Source: Aurantiochytrium sp. KH105 (Eukaryota; Sar; Bigyra; Thraustochytrida; Thraustochytriidae). From it: a stretch of DNA of 64,000 nucleotides. Position 1 is the first letter of the stretch. Each line of letters opens with the position of its first letter. The position numbers and the translations under genes were made by a program. A model generated the notes under the pieces. That model was not told the DNA's origin and ran no database searches. It saw nothing but the letters and a program-made list of their open reading frames with translations. The stretch lies in contig BGKB01000030.1 in assembly GCA_003116975.1 (NCBI GenBank), forward strand, positions 251,399 to 315,398, read 5' to 3'. Positions 6,027 through 62,517 of the stretch are shown piece by piece.

Positions 6027-6918
6027 ATGGCGTACGTGCGCGGAGGTACGTGGGGAGAAGCGGCTGGGGCGGGCGGGCGGGCGGGCGGGCCGGCGCCGAG
6101 AGGCCTGCGCGAGAAGAAGTCGGATACAGGAGCGGGCGAAAGGAAGCAAGCGAAAGGGGAAAGAATGAAACAAAACGGGGGCGCGGCAACTCTCGCGCGC
6201 GCGCGGCGCACGTGACGGGACGTGACGTGGCGTGACGTGGCTGGAGCATAGACTGATGGCGAGAGGAATGCACGCGACGCGCGTACAACGTACACAGGTC
6301 AGGTCCATGCGCAGCCCGGGCTGGGCAAGCGCATCGTGGACGCTTTCTGGGCCCTGGTGAACCTGATTGCACTTTTGTACGTTATTTTAAATGACCCACG
6401 AGCTGGGCAGACAGCAAGGGAAGAGCATCCCACATCATTCATTCGATCGATCGATGCCTCCGTTGTACGAATGGATCAATTCACAATCAAACGTCGAATC
6501 ATATTCTGACACCAAATCAAAAAACAAACCCTTGCATTTGCTTGACGCGTCTCTTCATCGGTACACAGTTTCAAGACCATCTTCTCCTCGCCCGAAGAAC
6601 TCGAGGCTGAACGCAGGAGACGCGGACAGAACCCAGTCTTTCGCTCCTCAGGAACTCACTATGGAGGTGGTGGCGGTGGCGGCGGCGGCGGCGGTGGCGG
6701 TGGCGATGGCAGCTACGGTCGCGGCACTGGAGGAGGCAGCGGCGGCAGCAACATTCGCAGCATGAGCGACTATCGCCGCGGCGGCAGGCTCTCCGGGCTC
6801 CCCATGGTAAGTTTAATGAACCAGTGTCAGGCAGGCAGCAATTATGATTCTGACAAACAAAAATCTTTGCGCGCACGTTTCTTGCATGCAGGGGGGCGGA
6901 GGTGGCTGAGGTCGGTAA
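6027..6918 (+). CDS. SELENOK: Selenoprotein K (in-frame UGA = Sec)
   Basis: There are four exons: 6027-6045, 6298-6376, 6569-6806 and 6892-6918, all with GT...AG introns (252, 192 and 85 nt) and consistent phases. The product is 120 residues. It starts MAYVRGGQVHAQ, has one N-terminal membrane segment (about residues 21-38, VDAFWALVNLIALFFKT), then a basic and Gly-rich tail. The last exon reads GGG GGC GGA GGT GGC TGA GGT CGG TAA, i.e. ending G-G-Sec-G-R, exactly the SelK ending. UGA is at 6907-6909 (residue 118) and the true stop is TAA at 6916. SelK is a single-pass ER membrane protein linked to ER quality control and protein acylation. The Gly run (about 14 in a row) is longer than in animal SelK. 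A SECIS lies downstream at 7194. Confidence 0.92.
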
Positions 6919-7193
6919 AGCGTCAGGAGCACAACTTGTTTGTGTGTCTTTTTGTTTGTTTGTTTGATCTCACATTCATTCATTCATTCATTCATTTAGT
7001 CATTCAAATTTGCGACCTGGCGCCGCGCCTGATGTGCGGCGAGCTAGCTAGCTCGACGCACATTTTCAAATCCACCTTTCGTCTTTGGTGGCCGCCCGTT
7101 AATTGTTAGCTGGCTCGAGCTGCGAAGATCCGGAGATGACATTGGTAGTGGCACTGCTCTGACATGAATGCTCAAAGCCGTGACCCCCACTTG

Positions 7194-7245
7194 ATGACGC
7201 CTCGCGCAACGAAATACCGACTCTTGGAAAGTGCGCGAGGCTGAC
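7194..7245 (+). promoter_or_regulatory. SECIS element of SELENOK
   Basis: This is a 3'-UTR hairpin 285 nt after the UGA codon. A 10-bp perfect stem GCCTCGCGCA (7199-7208) / TGCGCGAGGC (7232-7241) closes a 23-nt loop that carries an unpaired AAA (7212-7214). The stem sits on the quartet ATGAC (7194-7198) / TGAC (7242-7245), which gives the tandem G.A pairs of a SECIS core. It is the signal for Sec insertion at UGA. The lower helix is weak by eye. An (ATTC)n run at about 6977-7001 lies between codon and hairpin. Confidence 0.86.
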
Positions 7246-7393
7246 AAAGCCTGTCTCTATACCTCCAACGCACAACAAATGTATCCCGCGCTGATGAGAT
7301 ACTGCGTTACTATGTACGTGAAAAAAAGTAAAAGTATCGAAAAGAAAGAAGAAAAAATGAGTTCACTTGCGACGGAAACGTCGTCTGCTGAGG

Positions 7394-8179: not shown

Positions 8180-9305
8180 GCTGCCTCCCTTGTTCGCTCA
8201 CTCGCTCACCAGCCAGACAGCCAGCCAACCCAGAGAATGAAATCGTCCAAGTACCACCGCCTCGCCCCGGTTTGCTTGTAAGCGCTGCGCCTTGGTCTTC
8301 CGTCTCTCTTCGTCCGCAGCCGGCAACATCGCGATCCTCACGCGCAGCACCGCGCCCAGGTCCGCGCCCACCCCAGCTCAGTCTGCCAAAACGGTGTGTA
8401 CTCGTGTTGTGCCTGAGCACCTGGGGTCCCCGCACGCACCCCCTCGAGAACGAGTGCGCACCTGTAATTTTGCGGTTACCAAATCGACTCCTTCGACGGA
8501 CTTGTGACGGCTCGTCCGGTTGGCCGCAGTCAAGCAAGTATTTTGAGGCATGCGTCAAGCGGGCGCAGCGAGAGCACCATCCGACGGTCCTCGTCCGCGC
8601 TCCATGGCAAGGCCTCCACCAGCCATCATCATCTTCTTCTTTTACTACTTCTTCTTCTTCTTCTTCTTCACCGCCACGGGATCGCCTTGCAGTCCCGGTT
8701 TCTGTAAATAACGCCGCCCGTGATGGTGTCTTCTTTCCATCCATTCTCGCCGCAAAGCTTCCGGGTCGAGGCGCAGCGGCGGCTCCTGGTAAATAACGTG
8801 CACGGTGCGCCTTGCAGTAAACAGGAGCCATGACTGGCTGGCTGGCTACACGCCGCGCCAACTTGACTGTGAAGCCACGAAGAGCAACGTCTCGCTCGAC
8901 GCATGCTGCTGGCCATGTGCGTTACGAGCGCGAGCTCGGATGGGTGGTCGCAGAAGCGCCTCGCCGCGACGTGACGGCCTCGACGCCGGCGCTCTCGGGG
9001 TCGAAGTGCTCGAGCTAGGCTATGAACACAGTAAAGTAGCCAGCCAGCCAGCCACAGAGGTCTCGGCGGCGCAGACGGGACGCGCGCCAGGCGTCCAGTG
9101 GGCGGCCGTCGAGGCGCAGAGGCTCGGCAGCGGCCGGACGTAGTACTGCAACAACAACAACAACAACCACAACGATAACAACCTCGCCGTCGAAGAGGCG
9201 AAGACGCACGCGCGCTCTAGCGCGCGAGCGAGCCGCCGCCGGCCCTCGCCCGCCCGCGTGCGCGCGTGCGCCGAGGTTCGAGGGAGGGGCCAAGACGAGC
9301 ACGCC
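8180..9305. other. Intergenic, 1.1 kb, possible hidden exon
   Basis: This is the shared upstream region of the unknown gene (-) and the VTT gene (+). It holds a (CTT)n microsatellite at about 8630-8670. On the minus strand an open stretch of about 170 nt ends at a stop at 8645-8647 and encodes a basic peptide with a Lys-only tail; it has no ATG in frame, so if real it is a terminal exon. Nothing else is supported. Confidence 0.4.
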
Positions 9306-10346
9306 ATGCAGACTGCCCAGGAGCAGCGGCACCTGGGTCACGTGACCGCCGTGACGCGGAGACCGCTCGGGTGGACGCTGCAGCAGGACAGCGGCTTCGT
9401 CGGCGACAAGGCGGGCCACGACGATGTGGAGTCGGGAGGACTGTCCGCGGTGCTGAAGGAGGCCGAGAGGACGCCCGCGCGCGCGGCTCTGCGCGTCGCG
9501 CGTAAGAGCGTCGCTCTTCTTGCGCCCGTCGTGGTCTTCGTGGTGGCCCCGGTGATCCTGCTGCAGCCGCTGCTGACGCCCATGCTCGAAACGATTGCCA
9601 AGGAGTTCTCGCTCGGATTAAGCATCTGGGCCAATTCCCGCTTCGTCGTCTTCATGTCTGTGCTGTCCATGGTGCCCGGCTTTCCCGTGCTGGCCATCGT
9701 TGCCACTCTTGGATCCATGCTTCCTTTTGGAGATGCACTCCTCGTTGGCACCTGCACGCGCCATCTCTCCGCCTGCCTCAGCTACCTCGTCGGGCGCCAC
9801 TTCCTGCGGTCGCGCAAGGACAGCCTCTTGCAGAAATGGTCTCATCTCAAGCCCATTGCGCACATGGCCGAAGTCCAGCCCTGGCGAATCACCTTTTTGT
9901 CTCGCTTTATCATGCTCCCAGAACAAGTGAAAAACTATTCGCTCGGAGCGCTCTCTGTGCAATTTTTTACCTTCTTTTGGATGGCTCTCTTGGGAGACCT
10001 ACAGGGCACCCTTTTCGCCGTTCTCATTGGCTCGCTTTCCGATGCCTCTGGCGTCGTTCCCGAGGTCGATGCGCTGTCGCGCGCAGATGCTGGAGATCTT
10101 GAGATGGAAAAGTTTTTGAAGAGTTCACTTTCTGTCGTCGGCACACTGGCCTCGATCGCCATGATGGCAATCGCATCGATCCACGTCAAGCGCATTCACG
10201 CGCAGTTCACACCGCGGGAGCATGCGACAGGGGCGGCGCACCGACACCCGCACGTCCATCGTCAACGTGCCCAAAGCGATCGTGAGTCCCAACCTTTTTT
10301 CCGCCAGCGATTGCGTCGCCATTCCCTGCTCGAGAACCTCGTCTGA
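9306..10346 (+). CDS. VTT/SNARE-associated (DedA/TMEM41-64-like) membrane protein
   Basis: The ATG at 9306 is preferred because upstream codons are not ATG. The protein has several hydrophobic segments: about residues 75-100, 115-150 (which includes the VPGFPVLAIVATLGSMLPFG stretch), and further ones at about 155-175, 225-250 and 280-300. The PGFP and ...PFGDALLVGT segments followed by SYLVGRHF fit the VTT domain of TVP38/TMEM64/DedA proteins, which reside in ER/Golgi membranes and in animals include lipid scramblases. The C-terminus may be spliced. A donor at 10281|GTGAGT joined to an acceptor at 10426|TAACAT keeps frame and would end at TAA 10558-10560 instead. Which end is used is undecided. 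Confidence 0.82.
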   Translation: MQTAQEQRHLGHVTAVTRRPLGWTLQQDSGFVGDKAGHDDVESGGLSAVLKEAERTPARAALRVARKSVALLAPVVVFVVAPVILLQPLLTPMLETIAKEFSLGLSIWANSRFVVFMSVLSMVPGFPVLAIVATLGSMLPFGDALLVGTCTRHLSACLSYLVGRHFLRSRKDSLLQKWSHLKPIAHMAEVQPWRITFLSRFIMLPEQVKNYSLGALSVQFFTFFWMALLGDLQGTLFAVLIGSLSDASGVVPEVDALSRADAGDLEMEKFLKSSLSVVGTLASIAMMAIASIHVKRIHAQFTPREHATGAAHRHPHVHRQRAQSDRESQPFFRQRLRRHSLLENLV

Positions 10347-50488: not shown

Positions 50489-53400
50489 TCACGTCTTCGA
50501 GAGACTCAAGGTTTTCTCGGAAGAAAAGTGCGCATCCTCGGAAGCATCTTCTTCCCACATTGCGACTTGTCGTGGCTCGGGACTGTTAGGAGGGGCTATC
50601 GTCACGAAACGATCGCTTGATCCGAATCCGGACATGGTGAGTTCAATCGAAGGCATCTCAAATGATGTGTGGTTGTGATTTTCACCTGGTTCCCGGGGCT
50701 TTTCCACCGCGCTCTCGACGTTGCTTTCGGCCCCGTCGATGTCGCCTTCATCTTGAACGCCGTCGTGCGTACTGTTTACAAGCGTTGACACCACAAAGGC
50801 GGCTATTTCAAGGACACAAACCCATATGACCACAGGTGATGTTTGAGATGGGGTGATAGAACTCACTCTTGTCAGGGAGTTGACGCCGAGCGCCAAAACA
50901 ACGAGCAGCACGTGCGAGATGATCTCGAAACACTCGTCGTCCTCACGGGTATAAGGTTTGAAGTACAAAAGCACGCTTAAGAAAAACATGCTTGTCGCGA
51001 TCAGGTAGTTTGATGCCAGACGAAAGCTCACGAGCAGCATCAGGAGGAAACCAGAAGTCAGCATCAACCGACGAAAGAGCTCCAGACAAGCATACCAGCC
51101 AAGTCCTCTTCGATATTTTTCCTGTACAGACCGTGCCGCCGTCACAAGGGAGCTTCGCCAGCCACGCACTCGGGGCTTTCCCGCATCAGAGGTCTTTTGC
51201 ATGTGAATGCCCGTCGCCAAGAGCAGCACCACGCCAATCGGGTAAATTGCAATCATCACGCCCGCGTATACACGCATGGCCTGGCTGACATCGCTGTCAA
51301 AATCGATTGTCGGATCCCGCTGAAGAACACGCAAAGGCCGCGGATCGGGATTGCCGTCTGCGTCGCGCTCGAAATAGGCAATGGAGTCGTACACAAAAAC
51401 GGACAAAATCGACGCCGAGATGCCCGGATACATGAAGACGATGAGCTCTGTAAACACGCGCACTGCCTGGTCTCGGACAGCATCTTGGTCAAGACCCATG
51501 TGTTTGCATATGAAGACTGTTACGAGCAACACGAAACCGCACAGCATCGGCCATACCGTGACCGCGAAAACTTTTGCGTAGTAGTCCACATGTACAACGC
51601 ATCCCATCGAAAAAAAATGAAGAAGCGAGCCGACGTTCACGTTAAGCACAACCGTCGCACTTCCTCCGCCGTAGCTGATGATGCCCACAATTATGCCGAC
51701 TTCAAAGACAATCTGGGCAAACTTGAGAAAGATTAGTGCCTTCCCACGAGCCGCTCTCATACAACGCTGCAAGAATGAGTCAGAGGAGCTGGACATGAAA
51801 TGAAACGAGGGAAAGCAAGATCTTCTCGGGCAAAACGAACAGCGCCGTCGTGACATGCTTCTCGCGTTTGAGCGTTGTCGAGTGACTGAAATTGCCACGA
51901 CGAAGATTGCAGGCACCAACGTTAAAATTAGCACGATAAAGGCCCAGATGACGACTTTGGCCATGTCTTGTGAGTTTCGAGCAGCGCTACACTGCTGGCA
52001 CCGAGCAAAGCCGTCGAGCGCAAAGCCCATTTCGCAGCTAGCGCAAAGTGTACCCGTATGGTGAGGAGAACAATATGGATCTTGCGGTGAAGCAAATGCT
52101 GAGTTCGATCTTGCTGAGGCTGCTGGTTCGCAAAACGCAGGTTCAGGGCAGGCCCGCACATCCAAGCTGGTATTGGCGATACGCCAGAAATGCTGCTTGA
52201 TTGGCAGCATCTCAATCACAAGACCGTCTTCGGTACAGTTTGCACCAGCACGTAGCTTTTCGTAGGCGTCGCAGCTGAGTGCAGATGTCTCGTTCTCGCT
52301 CACGACGAATCCGATGCCAGCCACACACTCACTTGACCGGATTGTCCCCGTTGACGCCGTGCTGCCACGATCTGCTGGGCAAGGATAGCAGGCCGTTGCC
52401 GTGGGATCCTGACGGAAGTAGCCTCGAGGACAAGGAACGCAAACTTGAGCATTCGGATCGCGTTCATAGCCAAGCTCGCAGTACTCCGCTTCACAATCGG
52501 TCTGCCCGGAAGAAAAGGTGGTGAAGCCTTTCGGACATTTTGCACATGATTCAGCACCGAGTGAAGACTTGTTGTGACCAAGTCTGCATTCTCGGCAAAT
52601 GTTGTTGCTTGTATCAAGCTCAAAGCCTGGGCCACACGTGCAGGCGTCTTCATGGACCTCAAACGTCGTTTCACACTTGCACTGCACCTTGCTGACGGCC
52701 CCAGGCTCGGTTGTGTCGGACCAATTCGGACAGCGAGCGCAGGCGTTGAGGCCATACGACGGCTTGTAGAATCCACGCGGACATGACTCGCACGAGTTTG
52801 TCTCAGCCTTGAATGTGGTGCCGGGTGCGCATGTGCAATCGCCGATCTGGTCTTCGTTAGAGCTGGCCAGGTCGCGCACAAAGGTTCCCGTGCATCCGCA
52901 CTGGGACAAAAGCCTGGCTCCACTAATGTCAGTATCGGTTCTTTCTGGACATGGCGTGCAGGCTTGCAACCCGTAAAGAGACTTGTAGGTACCTCGAGAG
53001 CAAAGCTCACAGTCGTCTCTCTCTCCGCTGTAGTAGAAGCCGGGCGGACAGGTGCACGTGCTAACTGTGGAGCTCGCATCGCGCTCAAATATGCCTTCAC
53101 ACTCGCACTGTGACACGTCTGTAGCTCCTGCAATGGTCGTCTCAGTTCGCTCAGGACAAGCTAAACACGCGCCAAGACCGAGCACAGATTTGTAGGAACC
53201 TCGTGAGCACGGCTCACAAGTGTCCGTTTTACCATTGTATGATGAGCCAGCTGGGCAGGTACATGTATACGTATCGTCCATCACAAACGGCGAGAGGCAC
53301 GTACATTCCTCAATGGGTGGATAGAGAGGATAGATGAATGTTCCGGGCTGAAGACTGGTCGTTGAGCGTGGTGGGCAAGTGCTTGCGCAGTCAGGACCGT

Positions 53401-55759
53401 AGCGACCTGGCGCGCATTGCTCGCACGCGACGCCTTGGAATTGAGAAGAACAAACGCATGTTCCCGCTGCGAATGCTGCTCCAGAGAGACCCTGGGAATG
53501 CTGAGCAAGATGGTAAATATTGGATGTGCCTGCGTTCTCGCAGGACGCGCATTGGCCGCGTCCACCTGAACACTGAGACGCGCAATCTGAGGCCGTGTTG
53601 ATGATGGGTATGAACTTGCTACCCGTCCATAGAACAATGTCAAGATCTCCATCGCCGTCAAGATCAACGACAGCTTTTATATCTGCTTCAGGAATTTCCT
53701 CCGAGGAAGGAAGAGTGACTTCTATAAAGTCTCCATTGCTCACGCTCTTTGAGAGTCGGATATGAGGAGGCAAAGACGTGTCCGCATTGACAACGACTGC
53801 CTCCATGCGTCCATCGCTGTCAACGTCCCTGAACACGATACTTGAAAACTGGGAAATGTTGAGACTAAAGTCATTTACTTGCACGAACGCACCGAATCGA
53901 CCGTGCTCGTCCTTCTTTTGGATATACGTGTCTTCGATGTAAGTGAATGCGACAGAAGCTATGCGAACGACGAGACAAAATGCATAATGCTCGCCAGGAA
54001 ACGGGCTCGTGACAATCCCTGAAGTGCAATAACTAGGTTCGACGTCTCTGAATGGATACTCTTCCTCTGGTACCTGTATAAAAGCACCATCCACATTCTC
54101 AAAAAATAGCCAGTCGTCGCCAATCAAAACCAAATCAAGATCATCGTCGTCATCAAGGTCCACAAAAGACGCCCCTGTTGTTGCAGATAAGCTCGATGAA
54201 GAGATTGAACCCACCTCAAAAATTCCTGCGGGCGCCCCTTGAGATGACACAGGGCCTCCTGCCACGTGAACAAACCTGTGATAGTCCTCATTGCGAATGT
54301 ACGTGATGAAGCCATGCGTCTCATTAATATTGCCAACGCAAAGAAGGTCATCGTCTCCATCTCCATCGTAGTCCACAAAGTTCACCAAGTGATGACTGAC
54401 ACAATTCTCCAGGCCCCAAGGCTCGAGAAAATCGTCAATACTTGCATCATCCACGAAAGAGAACGATGCAAGTTCGGGAGCAGAACGTGAAAAATACCAC
54501 ACATTTTGATTGCTGAAAATGACAATCTCGTCGTAGCCCTTGCCGAAGATATCGGCAACGAAAAAAGAGTTTGCGCATACTGAAAGCAAGGAATTGGTAC
54601 AGTCTGGGAAACCCACAATGTTGAACACACGCTCAGGATTATCGGGAATTGCAAAAATCGGCCATGAAGACCTTCCAGCATTCTTCACAAGACGCACTCC
54701 ATCTTCAGCTAGGAGAAGCACATCAATGAGTCCATCTCCATCAATATCGCTCACAGTCACGTCAATCACGAGACCTGTGCTCGGTGCTGCCATTGCAAAG
54801 CCTTGTTCCCACTTCTGTCTGTCCGCTGTTCCAACGTTTGGCCAAAAGTGAATCTCACCGGAGGCAAGGACGAATACCAGGTCGTTGAGTCCGTCGCCAG
54901 TAAAGTCAGAGAACTGAACGCGCAATACGACATCGGCATTGTCGCCTGACCCACGACCCAAGTCGCCAATCACAAAAACAGCGTTGTCTTTTGGTCTCAG
55001 AACAATGCTCTCGCTTTCACCTTGTGATTGCAGCGGGTTCTCGAAGAAGCGAAGGACATTGTTTGATCCTTCGATGCAGGGCATAACCCAGTCCAACTCA
55101 CCATCACCATCGATATCAGCAAAGGTATGCAATGATTGGCAGCTTGACAGTAGATCATCTAGAGTGGCTATATCGTGTAGGCCTATGAACTCGAATCTAT
55201 CGCTTTCTCGATTGAAGGTGAAGCCAGAATAACCACCGTACGTTCCACCGATACGAAACATGTAGATTTCATTGTCATCGATGAGTACAGATGCAGGAGC
55301 ACCTTTTCCAGGATACACTCCAACGATTATGGATGTTTGAGCAAATGCGTTCGTCTCAGTCCTCACAAAATGCCCTTCGACTTTTAAGTGGCAAGGGCCC
55401 TGCGCGGTAGCGTTTTCGTGTCCGTCAAAACACGCGCCGCACGTCTCCCCGTTGGCGCTCTCTTCCCGGTGAAAGGAACTGCAGTCTGGCGTTGGGCGCA
55501 CGCATACATCCTCTTCCACGAGGCACGTCCAGTCGCCGCTCACGGGCTTCAGCACCGTACCGTCCTGCTCGTGGCACCGCGCCAGGATCGGCTGCTCGCC
55601 CTCGCCGCAGTCCGGGTCGCGCTCGCCGCAGCCGCAGTCGCAGCCGTCTCCGCTGCCTCGCCTCGCCTCGTCGCACGCCCACGTCGCTTCGCAGACGACC
55701 GCAGGGGCCATCAGGACCGCGACCAGCGCTGCCGCGGCCCGCCACGTCGCGCGCCGCAT
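50489..55759 (-). CDS. Giant receptor-like protein A: FG-GAP propeller, GCC modules, polytopic membrane domain
   Basis: ATG 55759 gives 1,756 residues. Order: signal peptide (about 1-24); Cys-rich module ([20 protein letters not shown], then CLVEEDVCVRP and CGACF); about eight FG-GAP/VCBS-like repeats (about 205-710), each with a Ca-binding DxDxDGxxD loop such as [66 protein letters not shown] and [11 protein letters not shown] plus one degenerate DIFGKGYDEIV. Then EGF-like and GCC2/GCC3-type Cys repeats (about 725-1170), about 8-10 membrane helices (about 1260-1660) and an acidic Ser-rich tail ending LSKT. It is a plasma-membrane receptor or adhesion-type protein by layout; the ligand is unknown. 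First of three tandem paralogs; it has four PCSRG.YKS.-type modules where gene B has one. Confidence 0.88.
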   Translation of the reverse strand: MRRATWRAAAALVAVLMAPAVVCEATWACDEARRGSGDGCDCGCGERDPDCGEGEQPILARCHEQDGTVLKPVSGDWTCLVEEDVCVRPTPDCSSFHREESANGETCGACFDGHENATAQGPCHLKVEGHFVRTETNAFAQTSIIVGVYPGKGAPASVLIDDNEIYMFRIGGTYGGYSGFTFNRESDRFEFIGLHDIATLDDLLSSCQSLHTFADIDGDGELDWVMPCIEGSNNVLRFFENPLQSQGESESIVLRPKDNAVFVIGDLGRGSGDNADVVLRVQFSDFTGDGLNDLVFVLASGEIHFWPNVGTADRQKWEQGFAMAAPSTGLVIDVTVSDIDGDGLIDVLLLAEDGVRLVKNAGRSSWPIFAIPDNPERVFNIVGFPDCTNSLLSVCANSFFVADIFGKGYDEIVIFSNQNVWYFSRSAPELASFSFVDDASIDDFLEPWGLENCVSHHLVNFVDYDGDGDDDLLCVGNINETHGFITYIRNEDYHRFVHVAGGPVSSQGAPAGIFEVGSISSSSLSATTGASFVDLDDDDDLDLVLIGDDWLFFENVDGAFIQVPEEEYPFRDVEPSYCTSGIVTSPFPGEHYAFCLVVRIASVAFTYIEDTYIQKKDEHGRFGAFVQVNDFSLNISQFSSIVFRDVDSDGRMEAVVVNADTSLPPHIRLSKSVSNGDFIEVTLPSSEEIPEADIKAVVDLDGDGDLDIVLWTGSKFIPIINTASDCASQCSGGRGQCASCENAGTSNIYHLAQHSQGLSGAAFAAGTCVCSSQFQGVACEQCAPGRYGPDCASTCPPRSTTSLQPGTFIYPLYPPIEECTCLSPFVMDDTYTCTCPAGSSYNGKTDTCEPCSRGSYKSVLGLGACLACPERTETTIAGATDVSQCECEGIFERDASSTVSTCTCPPGFYYSGERDDCELCSRGTYKSLYGLQACTPCPERTDTDISGARLLSQCGCTGTFVRDLASSNEDQIGDCTCAPGTTFKAETNSCESCPRGFYKPSYGLNACARCPNWSDTTEPGAVSKVQCKCETTFEVHEDACTCGPGFELDTSNNICRECRLGHNKSSLGAESCAKCPKGFTTFSSGQTDCEAEYCELGYERDPNAQVCVPCPRGYFRQDPTATACYPCPADRGSTASTGTIRSSECVAGIGFVVSENETSALSCDAYEKLRAGANCTEDGLVIEMLPIKQHFWRIANTSLDVRACPEPAFCEPAASARSNSAFASPQDPYCSPHHTGTLCASCEMGFALDGFARCQQCSAARNSQDMAKVVIWAFIVLILTLVPAIFVVAISVTRQRSNARSMSRRRCSFCPRRSCFPSFHFMSSSSDSFLQRCMRAARGKALIFLKFAQIVFEVGIIVGIISYGGGSATVVLNVNVGSLLHFFSMGCVVHVDYYAKVFAVTVWPMLCGFVLLVTVFICKHMGLDQDAVRDQAVRVFTELIVFMYPGISASILSVFVYDSIAYFERDADGNPDPRPLRVLQRDPTIDFDSDVSQAMRVYAGVMIAIYPIGVVLLLATGIHMQKTSDAGKPRVRGWRSSLVTAARSVQEKYRRGLGWYACLELFRRLMLTSGFLLMLLVSFRLASNYLIATSMFFLSVLLYFKPYTREDDECFEIISHVLLVVLALGVNSLTRVSSITPSQTSPVVIWVCVLEIAAFVVSTLVNSTHDGVQDEGDIDGAESNVESAVEKPREPGENHNHTSFEMPSIELTMSGFGSSDRFVTIAPPNSPEPRQVAMWEEDASEDAHFSSEKTLSLSKT

Positions 55760-57203
55760 CCTCGCTCGCTCCCTTCGATCCTTGCGCAGGCCCTGCCTCC
55801 TTTCGCCCCGCGCGAAAACCTCTGGCAGCGCCACCTTCCGCGCGACCTCGTTGCGGCCCTGCTCGCGCCGGCGGCGGTCGCCGTCGTCCCTGCCGCGGCC
55901 GAAGACACACAGCCGGCCGGCCTCACACCTTTCCCCCGCAAAAGGTTCTTGTTTTATTTGCGCCACCGAATGTGAAGCTTCCACTTCCGTTGTCGTCTTG
56001 TGTAGAACCGCCATGGCCGGTCATTTCATGGTTTATAAGAGCAATCGCAATAAGCCGCTTTTTGGCGCCAAAAGCCAAAAATTAATTAGAGCATAAGCAG
56101 GCAATAACGTAGACAATTGTTTACAAAAAGTTAATATTTCCGAGCGGCAAAATCGGGCATTCTTTTTGGGACTCAACGTCACGGTCCCTCCTTGCGTACG
56201 ATAAGACGTACGGTAGCGATGGCTAAGTTTATCCTAGTCTAATGACCACTCGGGCTGCCAGTGCCAGTGCAGGAGAATTGAGCAGTACAAGCAATGACTC
56301 TGCAAACGCACAAAAAACCTCGAACGATGACGCCACCGGCCGCGTGCACTGCCTGCAATATCTGCTTTGTCGATCGATTTGGAGCGCAGCTCTGCAATCC
56401 AATGCACTACAGAAGGATCATGTTTCTCTTGTCGTTAGGCTAGGAAATGCTAGAGTTCTCATGAGAACGTGGGTACACACCACAGATTATCCTCGCATAT
56501 CATATGGAGTTACCTTAAAGAAAATTGAAAGAAATTCTTAAAACCTGAGCCATGCTGCGCGACCGAAGCTTCCATTTCCGTTTGCGTGTGAGAACCGAAC
56601 TTTCTGGTTTTTGCAAGTTTGTTGCTGCACTGTAGAGTTTCTTGGAAAGTTGAAGATGGGTGTGTTACCAGAATGAGCGTTCATAACCGAAGGGTCGGTG
56701 AGATGATGAGCTTTGGCTCTCCTGATGACTTGAGGCAAAGTTGAAAGGTTTGGATCGTACGACGATGTGGGCTATGGTGATCGTGAAACTGCCCGGCGAG
56801 CGGACGAAGATCGGTCAGCTCAATCTACCTCGACGTGTCGCGCCACCTTCAGGAACAACATCTCGTCGTTGGCGCAGCGCGCCCCTTGAAACCAAATCGG
56901 ACCCGATGGCCAGCTCCTCGAAACAAAGAAGGGGTTGTGTGCTCATACACGCTTGACAACTTCTGGTGAATCTCGTCTTAGGCATTCATCTCTCCATGTC
57001 TGTCAACGCATACAGCACAAATTTCACCGGGGCGACATTCCGGTCCTTCCCCACCTCCACCAAGGCAATGGTGGTACACTTTCGTTTGTGTCAAAAAAGG
57101 AGAGGAGCGAATGCGTTTTGCCGACGAGACGAAGAATTCGTCAAGTTAAGCCATACACGCAAAGTATTTCACATCCAGTCACACATCAATCCAAGGCAAT
57201 TCA
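55760..57203. other. Spacer between receptor genes A and B, 1.4 kb
   Basis: It is GC-rich close to gene A's start (55760-55960) and AT-rich beyond. A plus-strand ORF of 99 codons (56242-56541) has a genuine ATG but no match. The 3' half shows no clear remnant of a further paralog by eye. Confidence 0.4.
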
Positions 57204-60200
57204 TTACGTTCTCGAAAGACTAAACACAGCACGCGGAGGAGACTCCGCATCTTCAGGACCTTGCTCTTTACACACGGATGCTTCTCGTGCTTCCGGGCTG
57301 CTCGGCAAGCCATCGCTTGACCCAGTCAAAACGAGCTCAATCGAAGGAGTCTTTTTGGATTCAGGATCATGACCGACCGATCGACTTTCTTTCCGCGCGT
57401 CCTCTACATCACTCACGTTTCTATCGACATCATCTTGATCTCGCACACCAGCAAAGGTACTGCCCAGAAGAGTTGTCAAAACGAACGCGACAAGCTCGAG
57501 TGAGCAGATCCACACCACGACAGATGATGTCGTGGTGGGAGTGATTGAACTCACCCCCGTCAGCGAGTTCACACCAAGAGCCAGAGCGACAAGCAGCACT
57601 TGCGAGATGATCTCGAAACACTCATCGTCTGGACACGCATATGGCTTGAAGTAGAGAAGCACGCACAAGAAGAAGACACTTGACGCGATCAGGTAGTTTG
57701 ATGCCAGTCGAAAGCTCGCGAGAAGCATCAGCAGAAACCCAGAGGTCAGCATCAAACGACGAATGAGCTCCAGACATGCATACCATCCGAGTCCACTTCG
57801 ATACTTACGCTGCACACAGCGCGCCACGGTCATCAGCAACCCCCGCCATCCGTGCATCTCCGATATTTCTGTGCCACTGTTCCGCTGCATATTGATCGCT
57901 GTCGCCAAAAGTAGCACCACACCCACCGGATACACGCCGATCATCACACCTGCGTATACACCCATCGTTCGACTTACATCGCTGTCAAAGTTGATCGTCG
58001 GGTCGCGCTGAAGCACCCGCAAAGGCCGCAGATCAGGATTGCCATCTGCATCGCGCTCATAGTAGCTGATGGAGTCGTAAACGAAGACAGAGAGAATCGT
58101 CGCTGAGATGCCCGGATATATAAAGACGATGACCTCTGTGAACACACGCACTGCAAGATCACGGACCAAGTCTCGGCTCCATCCCATACATCTGCATATC
58201 AACACTGCCCCAAACAGCGCCAGCGCGCACAGCATCGGCCACACAGTGACCACAATGACTATTACGTAGTAGTTCACCTCTGCAACGCAGCCCATCGTGA
58301 AAACTTGAAGAAGCGTACCGACATTAGCATTGATAATCGCTGTCACAGCAGTCCCGCCGTAGCTGATCATGCCCACAATAGTGCCAACCTCGAGAACGAT
58401 CTGCGCAAATTTGAGAATGATCAGTGCCTTCATGCGACTTGCTGCCACAAATCGCTGCAAGAACGAGCCCGAGGAGCCAGAAGCGCGAGTGCATGATCCG
58501 ATGCAAGATACGACCGTGCACGAAAAGCAACGCTGCTTTGTCTTTGCTTCCGTAGCGGCTCGCTGTCTTGCGATTGACGTAGAAATCACAAAGATTGCAG
58601 GAGCCAGAGACAAGATGAGCACGATGACCGCCCACGTAACAGCCTTGGCCATGTCCTGCGACTTTCGAGCAGAGTCGCACTCGCGGCATCGTGAGCCTCC
58701 GTCGAGCGCAAAGCCGTCCTCGCAGCTTGCGCAGAGCGTGCCAATATGATGTGGCGAGCAGTATGGGTCCTGAGGTGAAGTCGACGCTGCGCTGGCCCGT
58801 TTCAACGCCATCGGTTCGCAGAATACAGGCTCCGGGCAGGCTCGCACGTCCAAGCTCGTGTTGGCAATGCGCCAGTAGTGCTGCTTGATGGGCAGCATCT
58901 CGATCACAAGGCCTTCTTTGCTGCAGTTCGCGCCGATGCGGAGTTTCTCATAGCTGTCGCAACTCAGCGCAGACGTCTCGTTTTCGCTGACGACATACCC
59001 AATACCGGCCACGCAATCGACCAGCGAAGTAGATCCAGTCGAAGCGGTGCTGTCTCGATCTGCAGGACACGGATAGCAGGCCGCTGCTGTGAGATCCTGA
59101 CGAAAGTAGCCTCGAGGACAAGGGACACAACTTTGCGTATTGGGGTCTCGCTCGTAGCCAAGCTCGCAATGCTCCGGCTCGCATGAGGTTTGTCCAGTTA
59201 AAAATGTGGTCGAGCCTTCGGGGCACGTCGTGCATGGCTCCGTACCGGGACTCGACTTGTTGTGGCCGAGCCTGCATTCTCGGCAGACACTGCTGGTCGT
59301 GTCGAGCTCAAAGCCAGGACCACAGGTGCAGGCGTCTTCGTGGACCGCGAACGTAGTTTCACACTCGCATTGTGACACGTCTATAGCTCCTGTGACTGTC
59401 GTCAACATTCGTTCAGGACACGCTGCACATGGAGCGAGACCCAGCACTGACTTGTAGAACCCTCGTGAACATGGTTCACACGTGTCCAAATTGGTGTTGT
59501 ATGACGTGCCAGCTGGGCAAGTGCAAGTGTAAGACTCGTCCATTACAAACGGCGAGATGCACGCGCATGCGTCGATGCTCGGATAGAATGGATGGATGAA
59601 TGCCCCGGGCTTAAGGTTGGTCGTTGACCGTGCTGGACAGGTGCTTGAGCAGTCAGGGCCGTAGCGACCTGGCGCGCATCGCTCGCACGCGGCACCCTGG
59701 AACTGAGGAGAACAAACGCAGGTGCCTGCTGCGAATGCTGCGCCAGAGAGGCCCTGGGCATGCTGAGCAAGAAGGAAAATATCAGATGTGCCTGCATTCT
59801 CGCTGGAAGCGCATGTGCCGCGTCCACCTGAACACTGAGACGCGCAGTCCGTGGCCGTGTTAATGACTGAAATGAACTTGCTGCCCGACCATAGAACGAT
59901 GTCAAGATCTCCATCGCCGTCAAGATCGACAGCAGCTACGATATTAGAGCTTGGAATGCTCACAGTGGAGGGAAGACTGGCTTCCGTAAAGCTCTCGTCG
60001 TTGCTAGCTTTCCAAACCTCAAGCCGACGACTTGTCAAATCGCTGAATTGCAGAATCATTGCCTCTGCGAAGCTGTCATTGTCTAAGTCGGCGAGAAAGA
60101 GGTCATTGAACCATCCGAAAGCGCCTCGACCATTTTTAGCGCACCTGAATATCCCGAACCGGCCGCCTGTCTTCTGATCTTGCACGCAATCGATATCCAC

Positions 60201-62041
60201 ACTATGCTCTATTCCAAATCCACTGGTGATAAGGGCATGCAAATTACCGGGAGTTAGTATCCCGAATGCCAATTGGGTAAATGTGCTACCTTATCAATGA
60301 TATATCGAATCTCATTGTTGAGATATCGAAATGGATTTTCTTCGCCTGGAACTTGAATGAATTTTCCATCTGCATTCTCGAAAGCTCGAGCACGCCAAGT
60401 CCGAGTTAGTTCTCCATATACGATCATTTCTCCATATAGCATCATGTCAAGATCGCCATCGCCATCGAGATCTACAAAAGATACTGTAGCTTTACGATTG
60501 ATTTGCGTGGAAATTATGGCGCCCAGCTCAAACGTTTCCGCCGGCACTCCTCGTGAAGAAGCCGGAGATCCTGTCACACGAGCAAAGCTATGGTAAGCTT
60601 CATTGCGAATGTAAGTAATGAACCCGTGCGTCTCATCAAGCTGGCTCACGCAGAGAACATCATCGTCCCCGTCTCCATCGTAGTCCGCGAACTGAACTGA
60701 GAAACTGTCAGTGCAGCTTTCAAGCCCCCACGGCTCCAGATACGCGTCAATACTTGCATCGTCTACATAAGAGAATGACGAAAGCTGAGGAGCAGCTCGG
60801 GCAAAGTACCACACGTTTTGGCTACTTCGAATGATGATCTCGTCATACCCCTTATCGAAGATGTCAGTAACAATAAAGGAATTGGCGCAGTCTGAGAGCA
60901 ATGACTCGATGCAGTTTGGCAAGCCCACGATCTTAAAATCACGATCGGGGCTTTTTAGTGCAGTGAACTCTGGCCACGAGTGGTCGCCCACATTCTTCAA
61001 GAATCGAACTCCACTCTCATCCAGGATCAGCACATCAGTAAGCCCATCTCCATCGATGTCGCTTGTGGCCACATCGATAAGGAGACCTTCGCTTGTGACC
61101 GTCACCACAAATCCTTCCTTCCATTTTGAGCTGTTGTTTGTTCCAACGTTCGGCCAAAACTGAAGCTCTCCCGAGGCAAGGATGAAGACCAAATCACTCA
61201 GCCCGTCGCCAGTAAAGTCAGTGAACTGAGCGCGTAAAATCGGCTCGACGCTCCCATTGAGTTCTGAGCCAACTTCAGGGAGCTCCAAACGGGCTGGCGA
61301 TTTCACCTCCGAGTATACCTCGGACCCGATGAAAGTAGGCGTTTCGTAAAGCAGAAGAACATTTGTTGAGTCTTCGATGCAGGGTATAATCCAGTCCAAT
61401 TCGCCGTCGCCATCAATGTCCGCAAAGGAATGAAGACTTTGGCAATTCTCTGGAAAATCCACTTCGGAAATACGACCATAGTCGCTGATTGTGAAACTGG
61501 CGCTGCTTCGGTCCAGACTGTATAAAATCATACCTCTCATATCCATATCAATCGTGCAGAGGCTCTCTGTTGAAGATAAAGACAGAGGTCCGTCTTCTCC
61601 AGGATAAATCATATCATCAACCATGACTAGATTGTAAAAGGCTTCAGTCTCTACTTTGGAGAAAAGAGTCAATTTTTGCAATTTACAAGGTCCCTGCGCG
61701 GTGGCATTTACGTGTCCGTCGAAACACGCACCGCACGTCTCCTCATTGGCGCTCTCTTCCCGATGAAGCGCGCTGCAGTCTGGCTTTGGGCGAACACATG
61801 CATTCTCTTCCACGAGACATGTCCAGTCGCCGCTCACAGGCGTCAGCACCGTGCCGTCCTGCTCGTGGCACCGCGCCAGGATCGGCTGCTCGCCCTCGCC
61901 GCAGTCCGGGTCGCGCTCGCCGCAGCCGCAGTCGCAGCCATCTCCGCTGCCTCGCCTTGCCTCATCGCACGTCCACGCTGCTTCGCATACGAAGGCGATC
62001 AAGACCGCGACCAGGACCGCCACCGCCCGCGTCGCGCGCAT
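57204..62041 (-). CDS. Giant receptor-like protein B, paralog of A, one intron
   Basis: Two exons, 62041-60290 and 60173-57204, are joined by a 116-nt phase-0 intron (AAG|GTAGCA ... GATCAG|AAG, with TACTAAC inside). The join restores [14 protein letters not shown], which aligns with YIQKKDEHGRFGAF of gene A. The product is 1,573 residues. The layout is as in A: signal peptide ([19 protein letters not shown]), the same Cys-rich N-module, FG-GAP loops ([77 protein letters not shown]), a shorter GCC region lacking three of A's modules, the membrane domain (about 1090-1490) and an acidic tail ending SLSRT. The upstream frame (60290) and downstream frame overlap by 19 nt if unspliced, so an intron is preferred over a frameshift. 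Confidence 0.85.
60174..60289 (-). other. Phase-0 intron in receptor gene B
   Basis: The donor is AAG|GTAGCA (exon ends 60290), the acceptor is GATCAG|AAG (exon starts 60173), and a perfect TACTAAC branch-like heptamer lies inside. Gene A has no intron at this position. The choice of acceptor rests on agreement with A. Confidence 0.75.
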
Positions 62042-62517
62042 TCTTCACCTCGCTCTCGATCTCCGTGTCTGTCGTGTGCGCCGCCTCGCCTTGGCGCGAA
62101 TGCGGTCTGTACTCGAATGCTAAAGTCGACTGCAGAAAGCGCGTGCAAGTCTTGCAATGGAATTACGTGATTCAAAGGGAAGTCCACCGAGACCTTCCCT
62201 ACACTGACGAAGTGCGCGCGGCCGGAAATTATAGAGCACAATTGTTGGCCTCGACTAAACAGTGCCACATCTGATACACGCGCCAGCCCGTACGCTGAGA
62301 GAAGCGCCTTTGCCTCGAGATATGTTCCGCATGGTTTCTGGTGCGGACTTTCGAGTGAGAGGAAAAGGGCACTTCCACATGAATGAAGCGGTGATGTGAA
62401 AGCTTATACTGAATTATACAGCAGAACAAAAATAAACAGTTCTGTAGATCAGGATCAGTGCGCCCTCGCCAGTCAGTCTCATTTTTGAATCGGACCAAGA
62501 CATGATACACATTATCG
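62042..62517. other. Spacer between receptor genes B and C, 476 bp
   Basis: This is the promoter side of gene B. It is short compared with the 1.4 kb between A and B, with no coding sequence. Confidence 0.45.

Follow-up and report, generated by a model that had tools for sequence, protein, structure and literature searches.

Is the UGA codon close to the end of a small spliced gene a stop, or is it read as selenocysteine (Sec)? This question is raised by a locus in the window analysed here (the whole stretch of DNA, 64 kb in length), in which a sequence-only reading had recognised a four-exon selenoprotein K (SelK) gene with UGA recoding and a Gly-Arg-stop ending. The predicted gene, its downstream region, a second copy elsewhere in the genome and the genes for Sec decoding were examined in turn.

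A predicted selenoprotein K gene

The exons, the joined frame and the family match all agree with the four-exon model (Table 1). The three introns have GT-AG borders (3/3), and the joined exons form a 363-nt frame in which one UGA, directly followed by Gly-Arg-TAA, is the sole stop codon ahead of the TAA at 6916-6918. The translation has 120 residues, with the UGA as codon 118, and would end in Gly-Gly-Sec-Gly-Arg; this is the G-G-UGA-G-R-stop ending expected from the sequence-only reading, and it resembles the ending of human SelK. Residues 2-90 of the product matched the Pfam family SelK_SelG (PF10961) with E = 6.9e-9 and 36.6 bits, against a cut-off of 23.3. By eye, the translation displays a hydrophobic stretch near its N-terminus, IVDAFWALVNLIALFFKTIF, encoded mostly by exon 2; its Gly-rich, positively charged tail includes 14 consecutive Gly and little proline. 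SelK homologues are described, in excerpts of PMC10650576, as having a Gly-rich, positively charged region, for which proline is also named, and a Sec residue second or third from the C-terminus; here, codon 118 of 120 is the third from the end. The predicted SelK identity is supported by the Pfam match together with this position of the putative Sec.

Table 1. Features of the predicted SelK locus, in window positions
Feature	Position	Strand	Remarks
SelK coding exon 1	6027..6045	+	19 nt; ATG at 6027-6029; in frame, GT donor
SelK coding exon 2	6298..6376	+	79 nt; in frame, AG/GT borders
SelK coding exon 3	6569..6806	+	238 nt; in frame, AG/GT borders; basic stretch, then Gly-rich tail
SelK coding exon 4	6892..6918	+	27 nt; GGGGG-UGA-GR-stop
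In-frame UGA, putative selenocysteine	6907..6909	+	in both SelK copies
SECIS with ministem (type II)	7194..7245	+	AUGA / 10-bp stem / AAA / ministem CCGA-CUC-UUGG / UGAC

Other searches with this product were less productive. The 35 PDB matches were weak (E at least 0.0029), fell mostly on the Gly-rich part and included no selenoprotein, and none was retained as a structural homologue. PF10961 had no match in the whole genome (76.0 Mb, 367 contigs); this search is uninformative on the number of SelK genes because it missed the present gene too. Elsewhere in the window, a neighbouring frame (9147-10343, + strand) carries a VTT domain (E = 8.8e-15), and three large adjoining frames on the - strand (50489-62044), probably surface proteins, contain FG-GAP repeats, two of them with ephrin-receptor-like repeats and the third with a weak match to a Tc-toxin middle region, read as FG-GAP repeat similarity. 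ARAGORN detected no tRNA in the 64-kb window.

A SECIS-type hairpin downstream of the coding region

The hairpin had been described by the sequence-only reading as a 10-bp perfect stem with an ATGA/TGA quartet and an AAA loop, and this is what the downstream region contains. The stem GCCTCGCGCA (7199-7208) pairs perfectly over 10 bp with TGCGCGAGGC (7232-7241), is preceded by ATGA (7194-7197), encloses a loop with AAA (7209-7231) and is followed by TGAC (7242-7245). The distance from the end of the UGA to the ATGA is 284 nt; the hairpin is thus downstream as proposed, at a distance one nucleotide short of the 285 nt given before. Excerpts of PMC11227280 describe the eukaryotic SECIS as an AUGA_GA quartet below an upper stem, with unpaired A on top and a ministem in type II elements, and set their numerical limits for Asgard archaea. 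The SelK hairpin agrees with this type II description in its AUGA...GA quartet, 10-bp upper stem, unpaired AAA and ministem, and differs from known elements in having no Rfam match. Beneath the quartet the helix looks short, and it is missing from the predicted fold.

The RNA fold of 7185-7255 has a z-score of -3.6, none of 200 shuffled sequences being equally stable. A strict descriptor (RTGA, a perfect stem of at least 9 bp with at most 2 G-U pairs, AA on top, GA after) matched once in the two strands of the window taken together, at this hairpin, and, over loci L001-L034 (270,544 bases, both strands), in both SelK copies only. In 2.56 Mb of first-order Markov sequence it gave 2 matches at the composition of the window and 3 at the local one, never with 10 or more bp free of G-U, which corresponds to a chance expectation of about 0.0004-0.0006 per 480 nt. 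With a looser descriptor the SelK hairpin scored 10 and other places in the window 8.0 (43600, + strand) and 8.5 (33074, - strand); 640 kb of simulated sequence gave 6 matches of at least 8 and 0 of at least 10. The descriptor figures are biased towards the hairpin, as both descriptors were designed with it already in view. Rfam searches with 3.5 kb and with 141 bases gave no SECIS at the hairpin on the + strand at E up to 10, with a model that may not cover protists; four weak matches from the 3.5-kb search (E 1.1-7.5), far under their gathering scores, were taken as chance. The interval from the SelK stop to the SECIS contains an inverted repeat of 30 nt (7033-7062, arms of 15 with one mismatched pair), which is 4 nt shorter in the second SelK copy.

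A second copy of the gene

A nucleotide search across all 367 contigs (76.0 Mb) identified a second full-length SelK copy on contig C87, with 89% DNA identity. Of its 37 matches, 2 are the full-length copies, 34 fall in the part of exon 3 that codes for Gly, and the last is a self-match of the repeat at 7033-7062. The C87 copy keeps the frame, the splice dinucleotides, the UGA, the Gly-Arg-stop and the hairpin. Exons 1 and 4 are identical between copies (19/19 and 27/27 bases), and the codon differences amount to 9 synonymous and 2 nonsynonymous when the two-residue gap is placed according to the protein alignment, or 8 and 3 when placed according to the DNA alignment; the gap lies in the Gly run, which counts 14 Gly in both copies. 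The introns share 477 of 515 aligned bases, a difference of only about 7%, so an unchanged exon 4 counts for little as evidence.

The same limit applies to the hairpin. Its region (7194-7246) is identical at 49 of 53 bases, against 250 of 263 before and 78 of 84 after, so that conservation of the SECIS does not exceed that of the flanking bases and the support it draws from the second copy is limited. The four changes in the C87 copy are one stem pair (C-G to U-G), two apical positions, one of which adds a ministem pair in the predicted fold, and the base before the 3' GA.

Pairing extends beyond SelK: the nuclear families searched and the tRNA-Sec were found in pairs on different contigs (such as C30/C87, C78/C170 and C36/C17), and SelK and two GPx genes occur on C30 and C87 alike, at a distance of about 120 kb. 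These contig pairs may reflect separated haplotypes, a genome duplication or a hybrid origin.

Genes for selenocysteine decoding

The tRNA-Sec, EFsec, SBP2 and SPS, which the sequence-only reading had named as components to look for, were all four present on two contigs each in searches of this genome, SBP2 in the form of an SBP2-like L7Ae protein, as were SepSecS and a PSTK candidate. In the tRNA-Sec and SPS searches all 14 control genomes (14/14) matched at a loose threshold, so only matches over the cut-off were used, which left 5 controls for tRNA-Sec and 2 for SPS. The family scans covered one copy of each machinery protein.

The two tRNA-Sec genes, with anticodon TCA, scored 73.5 and 70.2 bits (cut-off 47); a third match on contig C366 (42.4 bits, under the cut-off) proved to be a tRNA-Ser of the mitochondrial contig. 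The sequence TATATAAG occurs upstream of the tRNA-Sec gene in locus L009 (1400-1500), in line with a gene that has an upstream promoter. SepSecS scored 407.7 bits with PF05889 and 553.6 bits with TIGR03531 (cut-off 224.85); the PF05889 control also matches Bacillus subtilis, and the SepSecS claim therefore rests on the narrower TIGR03531. Domain III of EFsec scored 101.8 bits (cut-off 27), and the best PDB match of the protein was a selenocysteine-specific elongation factor (E = 1.1e-131); with the bacterial-type selB model it reached 198.9 bits, under the cut-off of 242.25. Among 12 L7Ae matches, 6 were inspected and the pair with SBP2 features was chosen; the one of this pair compared with the PDB had SECIS binding protein 2 (7zjw) as best match (E = 9.2e-19). 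The PSTK candidates scored 54.9 and 53.4 bits, far under the cut-off of 382.35, and one of them had an L-seryl-tRNA(Sec) kinase as best PDB match (E = 2.2e-5).

The selD search gave one pair only (276 and 273.5 bits, cut-off 125), located about 66 kb from the tRNA-Sec gene on C78 and about 63 kb on C170. In this pair (C78 L014, C170 L015) the SPS is fused, in a single frame, to a bacterial-type pyridine nucleotide-disulfide oxidoreductase domain at its N-terminus and is, by eye, the Cys form. The fusion scored 419.6 bits with TIGR03169 (cut-off 310) and 272.8 bits for the selD domain (cut-off 125). It shares the combination of an N-terminal TIGR03169 domain and selD with the NADH dehydrogenase-like/SPS fusions known from bacteria and a few protists, and differs from them in also matching TIGR04369 (fusion_not_SelD; 443.9 bits, under the cut-off of 700). 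Oxidoreductase-SPS fusions are described for bacteria and scattered protists in excerpts of PMC4561486, where bacterial transfer is the explanation given.

The Sec-decoding gene set of tRNA-Sec, SepSecS, SPS, EFsec and SBP2 is thus present in the genome. The working Sec pathway implied by the sequence-only reading is supported at the level of gene content, with an SBP2-like protein in the putative SBP2 role.

Other candidate selenoprotein genes

In-frame UGA codons were also encountered in two other families. A pair among the six Rdx matches has one in-frame UGA within a SelT-like CTSU motif, and a pair among the eight GPx matches has one in NVATTU; no stop codon interrupts the matched part of the remaining 4 Rdx and 6 GPx matches. 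Downstream of all 14 loci, the looser descriptor matched only the two UGA-containing GPx loci, with scores of 10.5 and 11.5 against 0 matches of at least 10 in 640 kb of simulated sequence. Both descriptors missed the SelT hairpin, their best places in the SelT loci being elsewhere or paired otherwise; visual inspection of the two SelT copies, aligned over their 3' regions, revealed hairpins in which one pair changes from G-U to G-C between copies. Because it was found by eye and missed by both descriptors, the SelT hairpin is weaker evidence than the GPx hairpin. Markov resamples at least as stable numbered 5 and 1 of 200 for the GPx pair and 4 and 3 of 200 for the SelT pair; these hairpins are more stable than most resamples and less striking than that of SelK.

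The mitochondrial contig and the source organism

Contig C366 carries mitochondrial genes, recognised from their sequences. TTA is absent from 5 of 14 of these genes and, in the other 9, confined to the last 31 codons of the frame at most, where the first late TTA can be a stop. In 30,000 of the 30,955 bases of C366 (961 N), 20 tRNAs were detected, with tRNA-Leu anticodons CAA and TAG, and a tRNA-Leu with anticodon TAA was not found in the same bases. On C366, TTA thus apparently serves as a stop, as it does in the mitochondrial code of Thraustochytrium (table 23; PMC9866869, in excerpt). The TTA usage, the missing tRNA-Leu(UAA) and table 23 together make a labyrinthulomycete the most likely source.

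Reading of the UGA codon

Very probably, as judged from the sequence, the region 6027-7245 is an intact nuclear SelK gene of a labyrinthulomycete in which UGA is read as Sec. The proposed recoding is supported by the hairpin, the second copy, the machinery genes and the UGA-containing SelT and GPx pairs. The mRNA would be spliced from the four coding exons, and the SECIS in its 3' UTR would recruit, at the UGA, the SBP2-like protein together with EFsec bearing the Sec-tRNA (anticodon UCA), so that Sec would be inserted at residue 118 of 120 and translation would end at the TAA two codons on. The predicted product would span the ER membrane once and extend a disordered, Gly-rich tail into the cytosol, and the Sec near its C-terminus may be redox-active.

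If the UGA were an ordinary stop, the gene would encode a SelK homologue ending at residue 117, and the Gly-Arg-stop and the hairpin would be remnants or products of chance. The small divergence of the two copies, which makes their conserved last codons weak evidence, and the lack of an Rfam match for the hairpin leave some room for such a gene, yet it is highly improbable given a hairpin that fits the published eukaryotic SECIS description and is rare in simulated sequence, the Sec machinery genes in the genome, and the UGA, Gly-Arg-stop and hairpin kept in both copies. Even less credence can be given to a splice form that bypasses the UGA and yields another C-terminus: under the four-exon model Sec falls at the third-last position, in line with the SelK homologues described in PMC10650576 (excerpts), and the GT-AG borders of this model are all retained in the second copy.

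Relation to known selenoproteins

Read as a Sec-containing SelK, the predicted product resembles SELENOK (PF10961) in its family match, the N-terminal hydrophobic segment seen by eye, the Gly-rich tail with basic residues, the Sec third from the C-terminus and the SECIS in the 3' region, and departs from it in the 14-Gly run of both copies, the human tail being Gly/Pro-rich and not known to have such a run. Since SelK occurs in nearly all Sec-using eukaryotes (PMC2375036, in excerpt), the present gene is an expected member of a known family. In other sources, SELENOK ranks among the least widespread families across 36 algal genomes (PMC7539508), the stramenopiles show a scattered distribution of SPS and selenoproteins (PMC4561486), and a selenocysteine tRNA is reported in Hyphochytrium (PMC5795050). 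No report on labyrinthulomycete selenoproteins was recognisable by title in the full-text literature searched, a coverage that most subscription journals fall outside.

The mechanism of Sec insertion is already well known, and these data add a DNA-level record of Sec use in labyrinthulomycetes and a plain annotation example of a gene whose true end would lie beyond a UGA. Tentatively, and with more doubt than for the gene itself, labyrinthulomycetes might combine eukaryotic-type decoding (EFsec, SBP2, type II SECIS) with selenophosphate made only by a bacterial-type oxidoreductase-SPS fusion, and might have rebuilt the SelK tail as poly-Gly. As labyrinthulomycetes are cultivated for DHA, their selenium need may be of some practical interest.
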